64,000 bases of DNA from contig NZ_CP014229.1 in assembly GCF_001553605.1 (NCBI RefSeq), positions 289,001 to 353,000 of the forward strand, read 5' to 3'. This stretch comes from Desulfovibrio fairfieldensis (GTDB taxonomy: Bacteria > Desulfobacterota > Desulfovibrionia > Desulfovibrionales > Desulfovibrionaceae). The notes under the pieces were generated by a model that did not search any database, had not been told where the DNA came from, and saw only the letters and a list, made by a program, of their open reading frames with translations. Position numbers and translations under genes: made by a program. Positions 15,396 through 49,262 of this stretch are shown piece by piece. Within the stretch, counting starts at the first letter, position 1; every line of letters starts with the position of its first letter.

Positions 15396-15819
15396 ACGGC
15401 CTCCTTGGCGTATAGGGTTAGAATGATGGCCGGGCGGTGCTGCTGGAGATCAGAGAGGTTAGGTGCGAAAGGCAGCGCGAGACCCGTGGATTCGGTTCGG
15501 ACAGATCCGGCCGGCGGCGGAACAAAGGCGGGAAAAACGCGTTTGCAGAAAACCTGTTGCCCCCTTTCTTGTTCCGCTGGCTTTATATATCACATTCTAT
15601 AGGAAATTTTTTTAGCTGTCGAGTTTTACGGCTGTGTTACAGTGGAAAGAATTGTATGACTTTTGCAAAACAACGCCTGTTCGGGCGGCGCGCATCGCCG
15701 GCCGGTGGGCCGCTTCCGGCCCCGCGCCGCAAAGGTCCGCGCGGGGGCTTTTGCTTTCTCGCATTTTGGAGTAAGCTATTTGCTCGCTGAAACTTCGCAT
15801 ACCGGGATGGGGGTATTTC
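15396..15819. other. Divergent promoter region and livK leader
   Basis: This 424-bp gap separates the divergent glucan operon and livK. It contains an AT-rich block at 15580-15660. A possible 44-codon leader ORF lies on the plus strand at 15656-15790; it is not rich in Leu, Ile or Val codons. A GC hairpin lies within that leader at 15719-15748. I see no riboswitch that I can name. Confidence 0.5.
15719..15752 (+). terminator. Attenuator-like hairpin in the livK leader
   Basis: GCCCCGCGC at 15719-15727 pairs with GCGCGGGGGC at 15739-15748 and is followed by TTTTG. It lies 70 bp upstream of livK on the same strand, so it could act as an attenuator or end a short leader RNA. Confidence 0.5.
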
Positions 15820-40632: not shown

Positions 40633-41883
40633 TCAGGCTTGCGCGCGGGCCTTCCGGTAAGCGCGCAAGGCGTCCGGAAAGGGGGAAAGCACTCTGGCCA
40701 GCACGCCTTGCGCCAGGGAAATGGCCAGGCCGTAATTGGTCATGGGGCAGCCCGCCTCGGTCGCGGCGCGCAGCCGGGCCAGCATCTGCCCGCGCGTGAT
40801 GACGCAGCCGCCGCAGTGCACGACGGCCGCGCAGTCTCCGGCGGAGTCCGGAAATTCCTTGCCCGCGGCCATCCTGAAATGCAGCTCGCCCCCGGCCAGC
40901 CCGCGCAACAGGCGCGGCAGCTTGACGCGACCTATATCGTCGTGCTGCGGATGGTGGGAGCAGGCCTCCTGAATCAGCACGCTGTCACCGGGGTGAAGCC
41001 GTCCGAGTGCGGCGGCCCCACGGGCCAGAGCGGGCAGATCCCCCTTGAAACGGGCCATGAGCACGGAAAAGGTGGTCATGGGGATGTCCGAAGGCGTCTC
41101 CCGGTCCACCGTATGGACCACCTGGGAATCGCAGACCACAAGATCCGGGGCTTCTTTAAGGCGCCGCAGCGCTGCGGGCAGGTCTTTGTCCGTCGTCGCC
41201 AGGCAGATCTTGCGTCCGTCCAGGCTGTCGCGAATGGCCTGCACCTGGGGCAGAATGAGCCGCCCCCGAGGCGCGCCCGTATCAAGCGGCACGACGAGCA
41301 GCAGAACGCCCTGTTCCGGCAGCAGATCGCTGAGCAGCGGGGGCTGGCGCAGGGCGCTTTCCGGCGCGATGCGTTCGATGGCCGCGCGTATCTCGCCCAG
41401 GCCGAGACCGCTGCGGGCCGAGGCGCGTATGACGGGCACGGCGGCGTCCAGGCCTTCCGGCCTGTCGGGGGCATCCGTTGTTTCCTTCGCGCCGGAATCG
41501 GCGTCCGCCTTGTTCCGCACCACCACAAAGGGAATCTCCAGGGAACGCAGCCGGGCGGCCGCAGCCGCCTCGGTTCGCCCCCAGATCCGCCCGTCCGTCA
41601 CCAGCAGGGCCACGTCGGTCCGGCGCATGATCTCCAGGCTGCGCTCCGCGCGCAATCTGCCCAATTCGCCGTCGTCGTCCAGACCGGCGGTGTCCAGAAA
41701 GACCACCGGCCCCAGCGGGGCCATTTCCAGCGTTTTTTCAACAGGGTCTGTCGTTGTGCCGGGCGTATCCGAAACAATGGACACCGGCTGCCCGGACAGT
41801 GCGTTGAGCAATGAGGACTTGCCCGCATTGCGGCGTCCGAAAAGCGCGATGTGCAGGCGAAGGCCCTTGGGCGCTTCGGTCAT
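40633..41883 (-). CDS. hydF: [FeFe]-hydrogenase maturation GTPase HydF
   Basis: A 416-residue scaffold protein on which the 2Fe subcluster is built before transfer to HydA. The N-terminal GTPase domain has GRRNAGKSSLLNAL (P-loop), TTTDPVEK (switch), DTAGLDDDG and RNKAD. The C-terminal cluster-binding domain has EACSHHPQHDDIGR and VVHCGGC, the CxH and HCxxC ligands of the HydF iron-sulfur cluster. The ATG follows AAGGAG. It is the last gene of the hyd cluster, 147 bp after hydB, with a GC hairpin in between. Confidence 0.95.
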   Translation of the reverse strand: MTEAPKGLRLHIALFGRRNAGKSSLLNALSGQPVSIVSDTPGTTTDPVEKTLEMAPLGPVVFLDTAGLDDDGELGRLRAERSLEIMRRTDVALLVTDGRIWGRTEAAAAARLRSLEIPFVVVRNKADADSGAKETTDAPDRPEGLDAAVPVIRASARSGLGLGEIRAAIERIAPESALRQPPLLSDLLPEQGVLLLVVPLDTGAPRGRLILPQVQAIRDSLDGRKICLATTDKDLPAALRRLKEAPDLVVCDSQVVHTVDRETPSDIPMTTFSVLMARFKGDLPALARGAAALGRLHPGDSVLIQEACSHHPQHDDIGRVKLPRLLRGLAGGELHFRMAAGKEFPDSAGDCAAVVHCGGCVITRGQMLARLRAATEAGCPMTNYGLAISLAQGVLARVLSPFPDALRAYRKARAQA

Positions 41884-42030: not shown

Positions 42031-42405
42031 TTATTCATACGGATAGGCGTTGCCCGCGAAATCCTTGTGGCGAGGATTGGGATACGCGCCTGAAGCCGTA
42101 AGCTTCTTGAGGCCTTCCGATTTGTCGAACCATTTGGTGTGAAGCAGTTCTTCCGATTTATGGCCCAGCGGCTTGCCGAGCCAGGAATCATAAAGGGCCT
42201 TGACCTGTGCGTTGTCCTGGGAGGCCCGCTTGGGAAAGGTCTTGTCGGCGCCGTACACGGCGTTGACGCGGTCGCGCATGTAGTCCTTGATTTCCCTGGC
42301 TCCCGCATAGGCCTTGTTGACCATGCGCACGCCCAGCAAGAGGCCGCCGGAGAGAATGCACGCGCCTTTTAAAAATCCCCGTCTTGTGCTCGTCAGTATG
42401 GACAT
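42031..42405 (-). CDS. hydB: Periplasmic [FeFe] hydrogenase small subunit
   Basis: A 124-residue subunit with a twin-arginine signal (STRRGFLKGACILSGGLLLG, arginines at 8-9). The mature part (AREIKDYMRDRVNAVYG, WLGKPLGHKSEELLHTKWF) is the Desulfovibrio HydB fold, which wraps round HydA. Its Tat signal carries the folded HydAB complex to the periplasm, since HydA has no signal. It starts 9 bp after hydA. Confidence 0.95.
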   Translation of the reverse strand: MSILTSTRRGFLKGACILSGGLLLGVRMVNKAYAGAREIKDYMRDRVNAVYGADKTFPKRASQDNAQVKALYDSWLGKPLGHKSEELLHTKWFDKSEGLKKLTASGAYPNPRHKDFAGNAYPYE

Positions 42406-42414
42406 ATGGCCCCC

Positions 42415-43671
42415 TTAGGCGTTGGCGTTCATATCGGCAAGGCGTTTTTTGAGACTGCCGTACAGGCTGGAGGCCTTGCGCTCCGCGTATTCCAGCAGGG
42501 TCGGCATCAAGGGCTGGCCGCCGCCGCAGACGCAGCCGCCGGGACAGGCCATGAACTCGATGAAATGATACGGGGACTTCCCGGCGCGGACTTCCTCACA
42601 GACCGCGTCAAAGCGTTTGGCCCCATGCACAACGGCCAGACGCAGCTCAATGCCGTTGATGGTCACCGTGTATTCCTTCATCCCCTTGAGGCCGCGCACC
42701 TGTTTAAAATCCCAGGATTCCGGACGCTGGCCGGTCACCGCCTGGTAGGCGAAGCGCAAAGCCGCTTCCATGACGCCCCCGGACACCCCGAAAATAGTAG
42801 CGCCGCCGGAGGATTCTCCCATCAGGCTGTCGCGCTGCCCCTCAGGCAGCTTGCTGAAGTCTATGCCCGCCTGCCGGATCATGTAGGCCAGTTCGCGGGT
42901 GGTCAGCGTGGCGTCGATGTCGCGCAGGCCGTCGGCGGCCAGCTCGGGACGCAGGCCTTCATATTTTTTGGCAATGCAGGGCATGATGGACACGGTGTAG
43001 ATCTGTTCGGGAGCATAGTTCAGCTTTTCCGCGCCGTAGGTTTTGGCCAGCCTGCCGTTCATGCCCACGGGCGATTTGCAGGAGGAAAAGTGCGGCAGCA
43101 GGTCGGGGTGAAAGGTTTCCGCATGCTTCTGCCAGCCCGGACAGCAGGAGGTGAATTGGGGCAGATGTTTTTTTTCGCCCAGGCGTTGTACAAATTCCGA
43201 GGCTTCTTCCCAGATGGTCACGTCGGCGGTGAATTCAGTGTCCCAGCAATGGGCGAATCCCAGGGCTTTGAGGGCCGAGAGCATCTTGCCGGTGGTCACG
43301 CTGCCGGGCGCGAGCCCGAAAGCCTCGCCCAAGGCGTAGCGCACCGACGGAGCGGGCATGGCAATGCACTTGACGCTCTTGTCCTGAAGCTTCTTTTGCA
43401 GTTCCGGCACCCAGGTCTGCACTTCATAAACGGCGAATTCCGGACAATGGGTCAGGCACTGCCCGCAGTTGATGCAGGCTTCGGGGTAGGCGACCTTGTG
43501 CGCCGCGCCGGTTTCCCCGTAGATCGCCCCTGAGGGGCAATATTCCTGACAGGTGTCGCAGCCGATGCATTTTTCCGCATCAATCTGCACAAAAAACATC
43601 TTGTCGCCGTCGGCCCCCTGTGGCGGCACATTGGGCTCATACTGGATATGCTCCATGACGATACGCGGCAT
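42415..43671 (-). CDS. hydA: Periplasmic [FeFe] hydrogenase large subunit
   Basis: A 418-residue catalytic subunit, the size of the Desulfovibrio enzyme. Two [4Fe-4S] ferredoxin clusters are bound by Cys35/38/41/45 and Cys66/69/72/76. H-cluster motifs L1 TSCCPGW (Cys176 proton relay, Cys177 ligand), L2 MPCIAKK (Cys232) and L3 [12 protein letters not shown] (Cys376, Cys380) are all intact, so it should be active. It oxidises H2 in the periplasm, feeding electrons to cytochrome c3, or makes H2. It has no signal peptide; HydB supplies it. AGGAGG precedes the ATG. It lies between hydE and hydB. Confidence 0.97.
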
Positions 43672-43698: not shown

Positions 43699-44757
43699 TC
43701 AGACTCCATCCGTCAGTCGCGCCCGCACGGGCGGCGATGAACAGTTCATGCTTCTTCCGGCGGCCGCCGGGTGTTCCTCGCTTTCCGGCGGCGATGCGAG
43801 CGTATGCGTGCGCCCGGCGGCCTCGACGGCCATGCGTGCGGCTGCCGTATCCACGCGGTTTTTATTATCGTAAATGCGGTAGTGTTCACGGTATCCCGGC
43901 GGCGTGAAGCCGGGCATGAGCACATTGCCCCCGGCCAGCAGGCCTTCCTTCTGGCCCGCGACCGTATCCACCGTAGCCAGGGCCGTGGTGGCGGGAATGT
44001 TGGCCCAGGGCAGCGCGATGCGCAGCACGGCCATGACCCGCAGGGTCAGTGCCGCCGTGCCTCCGGGCCGGGTGCCCAAAGGCGTATCCGCCTGGGGGAT
44101 GAACGGCCCGACCCCGCACATGGACACGCGCAACTTCCGCGCCAGCAGAATGTCGTCGGCCAGGGATTCGGGCTTTTGCCCCGGCAGGCCCACCATGAAA
44201 CCCGAACCCGTTTCATAGCCCAGCTCCCGCAGCATACGCAGGCTTGCGAGGCGTTCCGCCAGCGTGTGGCCCGGATGCAGGCGCGCATACAGCCGTGGGT
44301 CGGCGGTCTCATGCTTGAGCAGAAAGCGCGCGGCACCGGCTTCCTTCCACAGGGCGCAGGCCGTCCGGGGCTGTTCCCCCACGCTGAGGGTCACCGGCAC
44401 GCGCAGGTCGCGGCGTATGGCGTCCACCACCCCGGCCAGCCATTGCGGCGGCACCGCATATTCGCCCGCTTGCAGCACAATGGTGTCCGCGCCCGCGGTC
44501 ACGGCTTCGGTTGCGGTCTCCATTATTTCGTCTTTGGAAAGCGTATAGCGCACGAGTTGCCTGTTGGCCGCCCGCAGGCCGCAGTAGCGGCAATTGCGAC
44601 GGCAGACGTTGGAGAACTCCACAAGTCCGCGCACGAAAACATGCGAGCCTTTTTCCCGTGCCGTTATCCGCGCGGCGCGGCGCCGCAATTCGGCATAGGG
44701 CGTTGCAAACAGGAGCTTGAGAATGTCCTCGCGGCGCACAGACGCATCCTTGTCCAT
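43699..44757 (-). CDS. hydE: [FeFe]-hydrogenase maturation radical SAM enzyme HydE
   Basis: A 352-residue radical SAM enzyme with the cluster motif CRRNCRYCG (Cys52, Cys56, Cys59). I place its start at 44757, two bases after the hydG stop; the frame is open further upstream but would overlap hydG. HVFVRGLVEFSNVC, VTLSVGEQP and TGSGFMVGLPGQ match HydE. It acts on the HydG-derived iron-cyanide-carbonyl complex in assembly of the 2Fe subcluster. The last 30 residues are a serine/proline-rich tail. Confidence 0.94.
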   Translation of the reverse strand: MDKDASVRREDILKLLFATPYAELRRRAARITAREKGSHVFVRGLVEFSNVCRRNCRYCGLRAANRQLVRYTLSKDEIMETATEAVTAGADTIVLQAGEYAVPPQWLAGVVDAIRRDLRVPVTLSVGEQPRTACALWKEAGAARFLLKHETADPRLYARLHPGHTLAERLASLRMLRELGYETGSGFMVGLPGQKPESLADDILLARKLRVSMCGVGPFIPQADTPLGTRPGGTAALTLRVMAVLRIALPWANIPATTALATVDTVAGQKEGLLAGGNVLMPGFTPPGYREHYRIYDNKNRVDTAAARMAVEAAGRTHTLASPPESEEHPAAAGRSMNCSSPPVRARLTDGV

Positions 44758-44759
44758 GC

Positions 44760-46169
44760 TCAGCAGTAGACGTCCCGCTGGCCGGAACGCACCTTGGAAA
44801 GCAGCTTTTCCGAGACGCGGCGGGTGCGCTCCTCCATGCCGTCGAGAGAGGCGGCAATGGCGCATTCACCGGCCAGGCGCTCTTCCTCCCCCGCGTAGTC
44901 CAGCAGATATTCCTCAAAGGTGGAGAGGGCGTTGGGCGCGCACTTGGCCTTGATGAGGCCGGGTTTGGCGAGATCCATGAAATCCTTGCCCGTGCGCCCC
45001 AGGCGGTAACAGCCCGTGCAGAAGGAGGGGATGAAACCGTGGTCCCCGAGATCCTTCACCACCTCGGCCAGGCTTCTGTGGTCGCCGAGCTGAAACTGGG
45101 CCGCCTCAAATTGACTGTCTTCCTTGTAGCCGCCGGGATTGGTGCGGCTGCCCGCCGAGATCTGCGAAACGCCGAGTTCCAAGGTGAGGCCGCGTATGGC
45201 GGCATTTTCGCGCGTGGACATGATCAGGCCCGTATAGGGAACCGCCAGGCGCAGAATCGCCACCAGCTTCAGGAAATCCTCATCGCTGACGGCATGCGGC
45301 GGCCGGGACGCAAGGTCGGAACCGACGGCGGGCTCGATGCGCGGCACGCTGATGGTATGGCAGCCCACACCGAAGCGCTCTTCCAGATGGGCGATGTGCA
45401 TCATCAGAGCCAGGGTTTCGTAACGCCAGTCATAGAGACCGTAGAGCAGCCCCATGCCCACGTCGTCGATGCCCGCCAGCATGGCGCGGTCAAAGGAAGA
45501 GGCCCGCCAGTCCAGGTCGCGCTTGGGGCCCGCCAGGTGCACGCTTTCGTAGGTGGGCCGGTGATAGGTCTCCTGGAAAAGCTGGAAGGTTCCGATATGC
45601 CGTTCCTTGAGACGGCGGAAGTCCTCCACCGAAAGCGGGGCGAGATTGACATTGACCCGGCGGATATTGCCGCCGCCCTCGCGCGCCTCGTAAATGGCGT
45701 CAATGGCGTCCAGCACATAGTCGATGCCGCTGCCGGGATAGGCCTCGCCCGCCACCATCAGAACCCGCTTGTGCCCCTGGCGCAGGATGATCCTGGTTTC
45801 CTCAAGTATCTCGTCCCGGCTCAGGGCGCGGCGGATCACTTCGGTATTGGATTTCCGGAAGGCGCAGTACAGGCACTCGTTGGAGCAGAGATTGGAGATA
45901 TACAGCGGAGCGAACAGCACGATGCGGTTGCCGTAAATTTCTTCCTTGACCGCCTTGGCGGTGTGGTACAGCTCCGCCGTCAATTCCGGAGAGGAAAGGC
46001 CCATCAGCACGGCCACGTCCGTAAGCGAGAGCCCCTTCAGTTCCCTGGCCTTGGCAAGGACCTCGCGCGCCCGCGCCGGGTCCTCGCGGCTACAGGAGGA
46101 GGCAAGCACGCGTTCTATTGTAGCGTCGTCCAACCATGTGGCCCTGGTATCCGCAATATTCCCCGTCAT
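44760..46169 (-). CDS. hydG: [FeFe]-hydrogenase maturation radical SAM enzyme HydG
   Basis: A 469-residue tyrosine lyase that makes the CO and CN ligands of the H-cluster. The radical SAM motif CSNECLYC (Cys95, Cys99, Cys102) and the C-terminal auxiliary cluster motif CTGC with a third cysteine in IKAKC are both present. The sequence HTISVPRIEPAVGSD and QISAGSRTNPGGY is typical. AAGGGG precedes its ATG. It is the first gene of the operon hydG-E-A-B-F, and its upstream region carries three GTGTTAC half-site pairs. Confidence 0.96.
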   Translation of the reverse strand: MTGNIADTRATWLDDATIERVLASSCSREDPARAREVLAKARELKGLSLTDVAVLMGLSSPELTAELYHTAKAVKEEIYGNRIVLFAPLYISNLCSNECLYCAFRKSNTEVIRRALSRDEILEETRIILRQGHKRVLMVAGEAYPGSGIDYVLDAIDAIYEAREGGGNIRRVNVNLAPLSVEDFRRLKERHIGTFQLFQETYHRPTYESVHLAGPKRDLDWRASSFDRAMLAGIDDVGMGLLYGLYDWRYETLALMMHIAHLEERFGVGCHTISVPRIEPAVGSDLASRPPHAVSDEDFLKLVAILRLAVPYTGLIMSTRENAAIRGLTLELGVSQISAGSRTNPGGYKEDSQFEAAQFQLGDHRSLAEVVKDLGDHGFIPSFCTGCYRLGRTGKDFMDLAKPGLIKAKCAPNALSTFEEYLLDYAGEEERLAGECAIAASLDGMEERTRRVSEKLLSKVRSGQRDVYC

Positions 46170-46256
46170 GGCATCCCCTTGCTGGCAGCGGTCGCTGAAC
46201 CGCCGATTAGTGGGTTTCAGGACAAGCGGCCTGACGTTCAGGCTGTTTGTTTTTTT

Positions 46257-46283
46257 GTATTACATTTTTAAATTTCGTGTTAC
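46257..46283. promoter_or_regulatory. GTGTTAC-like half-site pair 1 upstream of hydG
   Basis: GTATTAC (46257-46263) and GTGTTAC (46277-46283) are 13 bases apart with an AT-rich spacer. The pair is 88-114 bp upstream of the hydG start, where a promoter is expected. Against GTGTTAC-N13-GTAACAC one half fits 6 of 7, the other 4 of 7. Confidence 0.45.
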
Positions 46284-46408
46284 GATATGCGAGCAGCCGC
46301 CGTTACGCTCACGCCCCCCGCGAAAGCGACGTCTCGCAATACCCGGAAAGATGCTGTGCGGAACCTGCCGTCAAATACCGGACAGGCGACAGGGGCCCTT
46401 ACACTATT

Positions 46409-46435
46409 GTGTTATCTTTTTTAAAAAAGTAACAC
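46409..46435. promoter_or_regulatory. Candidate NikR box upstream of hydG
   Basis: GTGTTAT-N13-GTAACAC matches 13 of 14 positions of the palindrome I recall as the predicted NikR signal of Desulfovibrio (GTGTTAC-N13/14-GTAACAC). The spacer is a run of T followed by a run of A. NikR is a nickel-responsive repressor; binding here would lower [FeFe] hydrogenase when nickel is plentiful. Confidence 0.65.
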
Positions 46436-46522
46436 CACCAGTTTAAAAAAATTCTCTGCGGGCAGGCCGCCTCCGGGCGGCGGGGCATGTATACGGTCGC
46501 TCCCTTGCGGATATGCCATCTC

Positions 46523-46549
46523 GTGTTACTTTTGTCAATTACGTGTTAC
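46523..46549. promoter_or_regulatory. GTGTTAC direct half-site pair 3 upstream of hydG
   Basis: Two identical GTGTTAC copies (46523-46529, 46543-46549) are separated by 13 bases, the same spacing as pairs 1 and 2 but in direct orientation. Confidence 0.45.
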
Positions 46550-46610
46550 AAATTTTATGCTTCCCACGTCCGATTACGATATGGGCCGGGGAAATTATGG
46601 GGAAGTATTG

Positions 46611-46648
46611 CCCGGAGCGGGCATGCGCAGGCTCATGCCTGCTCCGGG
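46611..46648 (-). terminator. Hairpin after the chemoreceptor gene
   Basis: CCCGGAGCGGGCATG (46611-46625) pairs with CATGCCTGCTCCGGG (46634-46648) with one mismatch. It is 30-67 bp past the chemoreceptor stop. The minus-strand side lacks a clear T run, so termination may be weak. Confidence 0.55.
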
Positions 46649-46677
46649 CCGGAGGGTGTCAGGGAACAGGGGGATGG

Positions 46678-48750
46678 CTACTGCTGTTGCATCCGGGCCA
46701 CCAGAGCCCGCAAGCCCTCGGTCTGGGCCGCGAGCCCGGCCACGGCCCCGGCGGCTTCCGCCATGCTTTCGGCGGTCTGGCCGACCATGTTGTTGACCCG
46801 TTCGATATTGGCGTTGATCTCCTCCGAGGCGGCGGACTGCTGCTCGCTGGCCGCGGCAATGGCCTGAATCTGGTCGGCCGTGGCCTCTGCGGTGCTTACG
46901 ATGTCGGTCAGGGCGTGGCCGGAGTCATTGGCAAAGCCCGTGGCCTTGTCAATCTGGAGCACGGCGTTTTCCACCGAGGCCATGCTTTTGTTGGTGCTTT
47001 CCTGAATGGCCTGGATGGCGCTGCTCACGTCGTGGGTGGAAGCCATGGTTTTTTCGGCCAGTTTGCGCACCTCGTCAGCCACCACGGCAAAGCCGCGCCC
47101 GGCGTCGCCCGCGCGGGCGGCCTCAATGGCCGCATTCAGGGCCAGCAGGTTGGTCTGGTCCGCAATGTCGGAAATCACGGTCATGATCCGGCTGATGGCC
47201 CCGGCATGCTCGTTGAGTCGTTCCATGTCCGTGCGCAATTCCAGCGAAACCGCATGCACCCGCTCAATGCTTTGCAGCGACTGATGCACGACCTGCGCGC
47301 CGCTTTCGGCCTTGGCCCTGGTCTCGCCGGAGAACCGGGACGTGGTGGAGACATTGCGGGCCACTTCCTGCACTGTGGCGTTCATCTCATTGATGGCCGT
47401 GGCGGCTTCGGTCAGGCTTCGGGCCGATTCGGAGGCGATCCGGTCGGATTGCTCGATCTGGACCGAAAGCGCGCCGGAAGCGTCGGAAATGACCCGGATG
47501 GCCTTATCCAGGCTTTCGGCCACGCCCAGCATGGCTGTGGTCTTGGCCTGGGCCGCCGCGCCCGCCTCTTCCGCCCGCAACATGGAGGCGCGGGCCTTTT
47601 CTTCCTCACGGTGGGCTTTTTGTTCGCTTTCCTGGGAACGGCGCAGAGTCTCGTTGATATGGGCGAGCATTTTCGCAAAACTTTCGTACAGACTCAGCAG
47701 TTCGCCGGAAAACAGCACCCTGTCGGGCAGCGCGGCCTGTATGTCGCCGTCGGCAATGGTTTCGGAAGTGCTGCTGAGCAGTCCCAGGGGGCGGTTGATG
47801 CTGCGCAGGATGAGCGCGCCCAGAATGAAGACCGCCACGGCCATGACCAGGGAGAAGATCACGCTGATCCGCAGCATGGCGTAGGTGCCTGCAAAAACCT
47901 CGTCCGCGTCGATGGCGTAGACGTATTTCCAGCCGCGCTGGTCGCTGAAGATGTTGACCAGTACGTCCCGGCCGTTGACCTTGGCCATGTGCACGCCGTT
48001 GGGCATGGCGTAGATCGTGTCGAGGCCGGGCATTTTTTTGTCCGCCACCTTGCTGAACAGAGCTTCGGCGTTGCGGGTCGCCACGATGATGCCGCTGGGA
48101 TCAATAAGGGTCAGGCGGCCGGTGCGGCCGATCTCCATGGCGGAAATGCTTTTTGAAAGCGTGGCGAGGCTTACCTCGATGTAGGAGACGCCCGCCGTCC
48201 TGCCCCCGTCCTTGACCGTATGCACAAAGGAACACACGGGCGTGCCCGCCGCGTTCAGATAAACGGAATGGGCCGCGCCCGTGCCGCTGTCCTCGGCGGA
48301 CTGGTACCAGGGACGTTTGCGCGGATCGAAACCGGCGGGATAGGCAATGGGAGGGTACTCCAGAAAACCCCCGTCCGTGGAGCCCAGGCCCACGGCCAGG
48401 TAGGAAGCGCTGGATTCGGCAAGCTGTTCCAGTATCTTGTCCAGCTCCAGGGCCTGAGGGCTCATTTCCCGGCGCGTGTGGGTCTTGGACGCGCCCAGTC
48501 CGACATGGGAGGGAAGGTACCCGGCCGCTTCGGCCGTCTGCGGCAGCCCGGCCAGAAAGGCGCTGTTGTCCTCGGCGGTGTTGAAGAAGAGCGAAACATA
48601 GTTTGTGACGCTCTGGACGGTCGTTTTTGAGCCGCTTACCGCGATCTGGTAACTGTCCTTATAGGCGTAGTAGGCCATGAAGGACACCACGAGCACGATG
48701 GCCGCGATGAAGGAAGCCATAAGGCTGATGAGTTTGGCGCGTATGGTCAC
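46678..48750 (-). CDS. Methyl-accepting chemotaxis protein, dCache sensor
   Basis: A 690-residue chemoreceptor. I choose a GTG start at 48750, after GGAGCAG, which gives an N-terminus like the MCP at 2519 ([21 protein letters not shown]); the frame is open to 48951 but that extension is proline/arginine-rich and lacks a start signal. Order: membrane helix (about 8-30), periplasmic double Cache (about 35-285, with [13 protein letters not shown] and [11 protein letters not shown]), second helix (about 290-312), HAMP, coiled coil, signalling domain with [19 protein letters not shown]. It lies upstream of the hydrogenase operon on the same strand, but the long gap argues against one transcript. 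Confidence 0.9.
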
Positions 48751-49262
48751 TGTCTGCTCCTGTAAGGCGCTGTCGCCGGGGCGTCGTAATGACGTCGGCC
48801 CGGCGCGCGGGGGCTGGCACGGACTTGTTCCGGCTTCTGATGTCGGGATGAAAAAAATGCGGGAACCGGGCGCCTCCCGGCGGCTCAGGCGCGCCGCGCA
48901 TTGCGCGGGCCCGTGCCGGGGGGGTGTCCCGCAGCATAGGTATATGTACATTATGTACGTTTATGAAACGTATAAGAAAATATGTGTTGTTGCAAGATGA
49001 ATCTGAAAAATGTATCAATCGTTATCTGTAAATATATCAATCGCGCTGCATATGGTATACGTAATTTTCTATATCGCTGAAAGATAATCTTGAGTTCATT
49101 TTTCTGGCTTTCAATATATCGCACATTTTATGTGTAGTATTCTTTGTGCTGGTATCCTGACAATACTGCGCATATATGTATAGATTTATCTACGGAAATG
49201 CGCAGCCGCCGCCCTGATCCACGCCCCTGCGGGTGAAGCGGGCCGCGCGGAGGCGACCCGTC
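48751..49262. other. AT-rich intergenic region with palindromes
   Basis: 512 bp with no convincing gene. Two adjacent palindromes lie at 48946-48958 (GTACATTATGTAC) and 48957-48971 (ACGTTTATGAAACGT), about 200 bp upstream of the chemoreceptor start; they may be an operator. 49000-49190 is strongly AT-rich. Confidence 0.45.

Follow-up and report, generated by a model that had tools for sequence, protein, structure and literature searches.

Repression of a nickel-independent [Fe] hydrogenase by nickel, via NikR, was predicted by Rodionov et al. (2004; PMC545781), who, in the portions of that paper considered here, place a site GTaTTAC-[N13]-GTAACAC at -83 of hydAB in 'Desulfovibrio desulfuricans' (their Table 4), give GTGTTAC-[N13/14]-GTAACAC as the delta-proteobacterial NikR consensus and GTATGAT-N13/14-ATCATAC as the enterobacterial one, and describe reversed (everted) half-sites in Desulfotalea psychrophila and at nikK of D. 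vulgaris. Within the literature on NikR in Desulfovibrio that was covered, which takes in later work incompletely, only this paper bore on the question; PMC11247825, in the part considered, was of no help. Given that prediction, the locus described here builds on a known idea. The proposed nickel switch was largely expected and its operator layout is unusual; it goes beyond the 2004 prediction in taking in the whole maturation operon, in a two- or three-operator layout with a -35 box in a spacer, and in the varying orientation of its half-sites.

The window, i.e. the whole stretch of DNA that was analysed, comprises 64,000 nt of Desulfovibrio fairfieldensis contig NZ_CP014229.1 (genome 3.70 Mb; coded G000 in the comparisons below). 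Open reading frames and profile matches place hydG, hydE, hydA, hydB and hydF on its minus strand, all in one direction (Table 1), in agreement with the initial annotation, which had read a complete [FeFe] hydrogenase operon from the same gene content: HydA belongs to group A, HydG, HydE, HydA and HydF all pass the cut-offs of curated models, and a separate small subunit carries a Tat signal, as in a periplasmic HydAB operon. HydB also matches the C-terminal part of a group A6 hydrogenase, below the cut-off. Upstream of hydG on the same strand lies a chemotaxis-receptor-like gene (46678-48951), leaving an intervening gap of 508 bp (46170-46677). A [NiFe] hydrogenase to switch to is available elsewhere in the genome, which holds two full-length matches to the [NiFe(Se)] large subunit family PF00374 and two partial ones; no NikR-like site was found in the 8-9 kb surrounding each full-length large subunit gene. 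A second HydG-like gene (363022-364401 of this genome, locus L309; 42% identity) lies 28 kb from hydG, on the side away from the remaining operon, and the 17 kb read around it held no NikR-like site.

Table 1. Hydrogenase genes and predicted regulatory features, in positions of the window.
Feature	Position	Strand	Remarks
-35 hexamer TTGACA of predicted promoter P1	46533..46538	-	Inside the distal operator; same offset in nine relatives
Candidate -10 hexamer CATATC of P1	46510..46515	-	17-bp spacing, weak match; second-ranked in the gap
Distal NikR operator (predicted)	46523..46549	-	GTGTTAC-N13-GTGTTAC, 0 mismatches, direct repeat; layout shared with the hyd upstream regions of nine relatives
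Middle NikR operator (predicted)	46409..46435	-	GTGTTAT-N13-GTAACAC, inverted repeat, 13/14 to the palindrome
Proximal NikR operator (predicted)	46257..46283	-	GTATTAC-N13-GTGTTAC, 1 mismatch, direct repeat
hydG, H-cluster maturase	44760..46169	-	TIGR03955, 502 bits (cut-off 312)
hydE, H-cluster maturase	43699..44865	-	TIGR03956, 291 bits (cut-off 255)
hydA, [FeFe] hydrogenase large subunit, group A	42415..43671	-	TIGR02512, 485 bits (cut-off 406)
hydB, small subunit, twin-arginine signal	42031..42405	-	TIGR01409 over cut-off; 124-aa ORF
hydF, maturation GTPase	40633..41883	-	TIGR03918, 506 bits (cut-off 326)

Six half-sites lie in the gap before hydG, none differing from GTGTTAC/GTAACAC at more than one base (starts 46257, 46277, 46409, 46429, 46523 and 46543), and they form three pairs that each have a 13-bp spacer (20-bp offset) and 0-1 mismatches. 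Across the whole window, 62 half-sites were found at this threshold, and the only pairs at a 20-bp offset were those three. When the gap was shuffled 2000 times with dinucleotides preserved, the mean was 0.0025 pairs and the maximum one; a single pair arose in five shuffles and three pairs in none. The middle pair is exactly as first described; the two outer pairs, which the initial annotation had listed alongside it, are present with the same spacer length, but as direct repeats, not inverted ones. Textbook NikR operators are inverted repeats, a form taken here by the middle site only, whose spacer consists of a T-tract followed by an A-tract. Read in the direction of the genes, the distal site is GTAACAC-GTAATTGACAAAA-GTAACAC, enclosing the -35 hexamer, and the proximal site is GTAACAC-GAAATTTAAAAAT-GTAATAC. 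Successive sites lie 114 and 152 bp apart, all three within 293 bp. A further pair in the window, with two mismatches and a poorer spacer (15634-15660), lies ahead of an ABC transporter judged by inspection to be of branched-chain amino-acid type, and was taken as chance.

The genome encodes one NikR (139 aa; PF08753, 118 bits; RHH_1 and NikR_C domains), so that the absence of nikR, which had been named as grounds for rejecting the proposal, does not apply. The protein aligns with solved NikR proteins, including that of E. coli, with the HVH..C stretch in place. Its ribbon strand, whose residues presumably contact DNA, reads R-F-G-V-S, and R-x-G-x-S was found in it and in 28 of 29 relatives with loci at hand (of 71 genomes with a match), by a search expression that itself favoured such a motif and missed L155. 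In Geobacter, a NikR of this R-G-S type reportedly has an inverted-repeat operator and binds cooperatively. Among genus genomes, nikR was found in 71 of 79; the eight in which it was not found are 63-81% complete, except G032 (92%), and five of them, 63-80% complete, keep the nikK operator. Co-occurrence of nikR and operator was therefore set aside as an uninformative test, as the nikR-negative genomes are mostly incomplete and five still carry the nikK pair.

The nickel transporter operon of this genome runs nikK-M-L-Q (nikM by PF01891, the remaining genes named from inspection and their order) and is preceded by TTGCTAC-TTTTTCAAAATTT-GTGTTAC, a direct repeat with a 13-bp spacer and two mismatches. 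Such a pair (≤3 mismatches, A+T-rich 13-bp spacer, within 300 bp) precedes nikK at 54 of 67 loci in the genus (55 of 68 entries before removal of one locus entered twice; two entries had truncated upstream DNA of 4 and 84 bp), compared with 1.2% in a Markov-resampled control. Forty-two of these 54 sites are direct repeats (41 in one sense, one in the other), ten are everted, one is inverted and one undecided; inversion is therefore no marker of operators in this genus.

Of 79 genus genomes, 24 have a relative of hydA at E ≤ 1e-100, and 23 of these were examined. At least one site (≤2 mismatches; range 600 bp from the first gene of the operon, as assigned in this analysis) was found at 15 of the 23 hydAB operons, against 3 of 2300 resampled controls. 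In three genomes (G075, G095 and G006) it stands 558 bp upstream of hydA. The eight operons without a site belong to G072, G014, G092, G064, G032, G083, G078 and G024; the contig of G072 ends after 233 bp, the G092 region spans 495 bp, and only G032 is without a nikR match. As a negative control, HydG orthologues in genomes without a close hydA had a site in none of ten cases, even at three mismatches, and seven of those ten genomes have nikR. Outside the genus, a scan made before hydA rather than before the operon's first gene found a site in 7 of 34 upstream regions (≤700 bp, ≤3 mismatches; control 9 of 680; four further regions could not be placed), and at two Nitratidesulfovibrio loci a site with TTGACA in its spacer stands before hydG. 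The hydG match of G029 falls into two overlapping pieces (L205 4607-6000), as from a frame change or insertion.

Because nikR is present, the motif recurs at nikK and at hydAB, and the negative control is empty, the three sites in the gap are very probably NikR operators, as judged from sequence comparison. The same counts lend good support to two parts of the original proposal, namely NikR as the probable factor and the whole maturation operon as its probable target.

The distal site is distinguished by what it encloses. Eleven hyd operons have two or more sites, counting the distal site of G013, which has three mismatches and came to light only through a search for TTGACA. In ten of the eleven (G000, G029, G082, G021, G066, G013, G088, G085, G086 and G076), TTGACA lies in the distal spacer at the same offset; the remaining operon, that of G063, has two sites 112 bp apart without TTGACA. 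A second, inverted site with an A+T-rich spacer, mostly T-tract/A-tract, follows 101 to 150 bp downstream in all ten; helical phase between the distal and middle sites is not constant, and a third, proximal site at a similar place was found only in this genome and G029. The candidate -10 hexamers 17 bp from TTGACA (CATATC, TACTTC, TACTTG, TAGGTT or, in six operons, CAATCT) are all weak. A weight scan with assumed frequencies ranked the putative promoter P1 first in three of the ten operons, tied first in three and lower in four, including this genome, where it was second. A consensus promoter scan of the gap gave none on the minus strand and a single one on the other, so the case for P1 comes from its conservation and not from how well it fits the consensus. 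A second candidate, P2, has its -10 element in the middle site; examples such as TTGCTT-N17-TAAATT or TTGGCA-N17-TAAATT give good scores in G085, G086, G076 and G088, and its role as a second promoter is speculative.

A search of the leader RNA gave no Rfam match near gathering score and two chance-level microRNA matches, and the DNA downstream of the distal site folds differently from one relative to another. In G082 and G021 (L206, L207), a terminator-like hairpin with seven consecutive T behind it separates P1 from the middle operator; G029 has T-runs too, as does the window near 46448. Sites with TTGACA in the spacer also occur before some nikK genes (G024, G064) and in G012 (L251, L254, L255, L052); the design of framing a -35 box is therefore not limited to hyd.

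The half-sites around the anchored TTGACA vary in sense while their spacing does not: GTAACAC/GTAACAC in G000, GTAGCAC/GTAACAC in G021, GTGACAC/ATAACAC in G029, GTATTAC/GTAACAC in G082, TTGCTAC/GTGTTAC in G066 and G088, TTGCTAC/GTGCTAC in G013, and TTGTTAC/GTGTTAC in G085, G086 and G076. The corresponding distal position thus falls into three orientation classes, among related genomes, so that independent changes may be few. We lean, by a little, towards describing a NikR operator of this lineage not as an inverted repeat but as two near-palindromic GTRNYAC 7-mers with centres 20 bp apart around an A+T-rich spacer, often a T-tract and an A-tract, with spacing fixed and orientation free and drifting over evolution. 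Orientation could be free because each RHH dimer is itself two-fold symmetric, and from this symmetry we infer, as the simplest reading, that such a dimer reads GTRNYAC either way. If so, free orientation would allow the -35 box of a promoter to stay between the two half-sites, and searches for palindromes would overlook a large part of what NikR controls, including the operator at nikK.

A palindrome-only scan of this genome (≤2 mismatches) gave nine matches at seven places, compared with 61 for the reversed-pattern control; the middle hyd site alone was near-perfect, and the nikK operator was missed. This result led to orientation-free scans. The exact pattern GTRWYAC-N13-GTRWYAC occurred at 25 places over 61 genus genomes, compared with 33 for the control, with 12 of these falling in one genome. 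No recognised nickel-related gene was seen by inspection near two of these loci (L044, L045), and a further locus (L058) matched none of the hyd and nik queries. The signal is separable only by spacer composition and gene context. In this genome, the orientation-free scan returned 17 matches at 15 places, compared with 10 matches in the control. Of these places, seven are upstream of hyd, nikK or likely transport genes: two at hyd, one at nikK, one at each of two copies of a FecCD permease, one at a TonB plug receptor and one at an outer-membrane-protein-like gene. The remaining eight have poorer half-sites.

The FecCD permease and, by inspection, a receptor-like gene occur in two copies, near 1.842 and 3.615 Mb (L263, L265, L307, L308), as 4360-bp clusters that are 99.5% identical and run in opposite directions; in both, two NikR-like sites of three mismatches lie side by side. 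Just past the end of this cluster in L307 (4539-5249, near 3.6155 Mb) lies a HydF-like remnant, in pieces, with 41% identity to HydF residues 124-364. NikR-like sites also stand before the outer-membrane-protein-like gene (L264 1501-1527; identified by inspection, no Pfam match) and before the TonB plug receptor (L267 1501-1527), and we regard the products of both genes as candidate nickel entry routes. Elsewhere in the genus, a direct-repeat NikR-like site in L048 precedes an FmdE/zinc-finger gene (family scan) followed by a receptor-like gene (inspection), with direct-repeat sites in similar context at L053 and L055 (by inspection); other sites precede a family-5 binding protein (L057) and a permease (L056, with L046 alike).

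Taken together, we consider the gap to be a nickel-responsive control region through which NikR represses the hyd operon, and place the probability of this reading at roughly 85%, with binding, repression by nickel and promoter positions all predicted from the DNA. That the distal operator encloses TTGACA, as in nine relatives, points to repression. Counting against the reading are the eight hydAB operons of the genus that show no site, the small share of hydA regions with one outside the genus, the nikK operators kept in five genomes where nikR was not found, the weak -10 boxes and uneven ranking of P1, whole-genome motif counts no higher than their controls, and the non-inverted form of two of the three sites. 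In the presence of nickel, Ni-NikR, a tetramer with two RHH dimers, would occupy the half-site pairs, whose centres are 20 bp apart. The main step would be NikR on the distal operator covering TTGACA, such that RNA polymerase could not use P1. NikR on the middle operator probably prevents use of a second start, P2, or forms a second barrier, and in this species and one relative the proximal operator may add to the blockade. The operon for the nickel-free periplasmic hydrogenase and its three maturases would thereby be shut, and nickel would go to the [NiFe] hydrogenases.

An alternative account of the array is that the three operators act as one unit, with NikR tetramers that touch, loop or cooperatively coat the DNA, so that repression comes from the array and not from a single site. 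Three sites within 293 bp, together with the two-site arrays of nine relatives and of G063, are consistent with this, and cooperative binding is reported for a Geobacter NikR; against it, the distances vary among operons, those in this genome misfit whole helical turns of 10.5 bp, and the third site is confined to this genome and G029. We regard action as one unit as possible but doubtful, and looping between the operators as possible but unsupported. Helicobacter pylori NikR activates some promoters, and several sites at varied positions could likewise suggest that Ni-NikR is an activator or fine-tuner at some of them and no off-switch. This is unlikely, as the distal site encloses a -35 box, a position typical of repression, and nickel-dependent activation of a nickel-free enzyme would make little physiological sense.

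That the motif is a chance product, or merely what an A+T-rich promoter looks like, draws on the A+T-rich spacers, which are common in promoters, and on genome counts of the bare pattern that do not exceed controls, but it is contradicted by the absence of any triple among the shuffles and by the excess over resampled controls across relatives, and we give it hardly any weight. A different regulator with the same DNA preference could read the sites instead of NikR, as might be suggested by the five incomplete genomes that keep the nikK motif though nikR was not found. Against such a regulator stand the frequency of the motif before nikK, the presence of nikR in most genus genomes, and half-sites and spacing equal to the published delta-proteobacterial NikR consensus (PMC545781, in the portions considered), and we consider its involvement quite improbable. 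Repression by NikR itself, with the distal operator as the main point of control, remains our preferred reading.

A prediction made in 2004 for one species thus becomes a pattern observed in 15 of the 23 examined operons of the genus, with a negative control. The layout is also concrete, with a -35 box framed by two NikR half-sites and a second operator 101-150 bp downstream, and free half-site orientation would alter the way in which nickel regulons are sought. Physiologically, the proposed switch gives a simple rule for when sulfate reducers could swap nickel-free for nickel hydrogenases.

Compared with hydAB of 'D. desulfuricans', as given in the portions of PMC545781 considered here, this locus shares the half-site consensus, the 13-bp spacer, the nickel transporter as a further target, the enzyme and the proposed logic. 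It differs in having three sites, two of them direct repeats, where that species has one inverted site, in an operon that also holds hydG, hydE and hydF, and in the -35 box inside one spacer. The regulator belongs by sequence to the same family as E. coli NikR (PDB 1q5v, 2hza, 2hzv), with 124 residues aligned including HVH..C, but the alignment sets R-G-S here against R-T-T in the ribbon strand of the E. coli protein. Like the everted sites of D. psychrophila and D. vulgaris in the same portions of PMC545781, the operators described here combine a non-canonical relative orientation with unchanged spacing; unlike them, they depart from the canonical form most often as direct repeats, and corresponding sites in related species are not all oriented alike.
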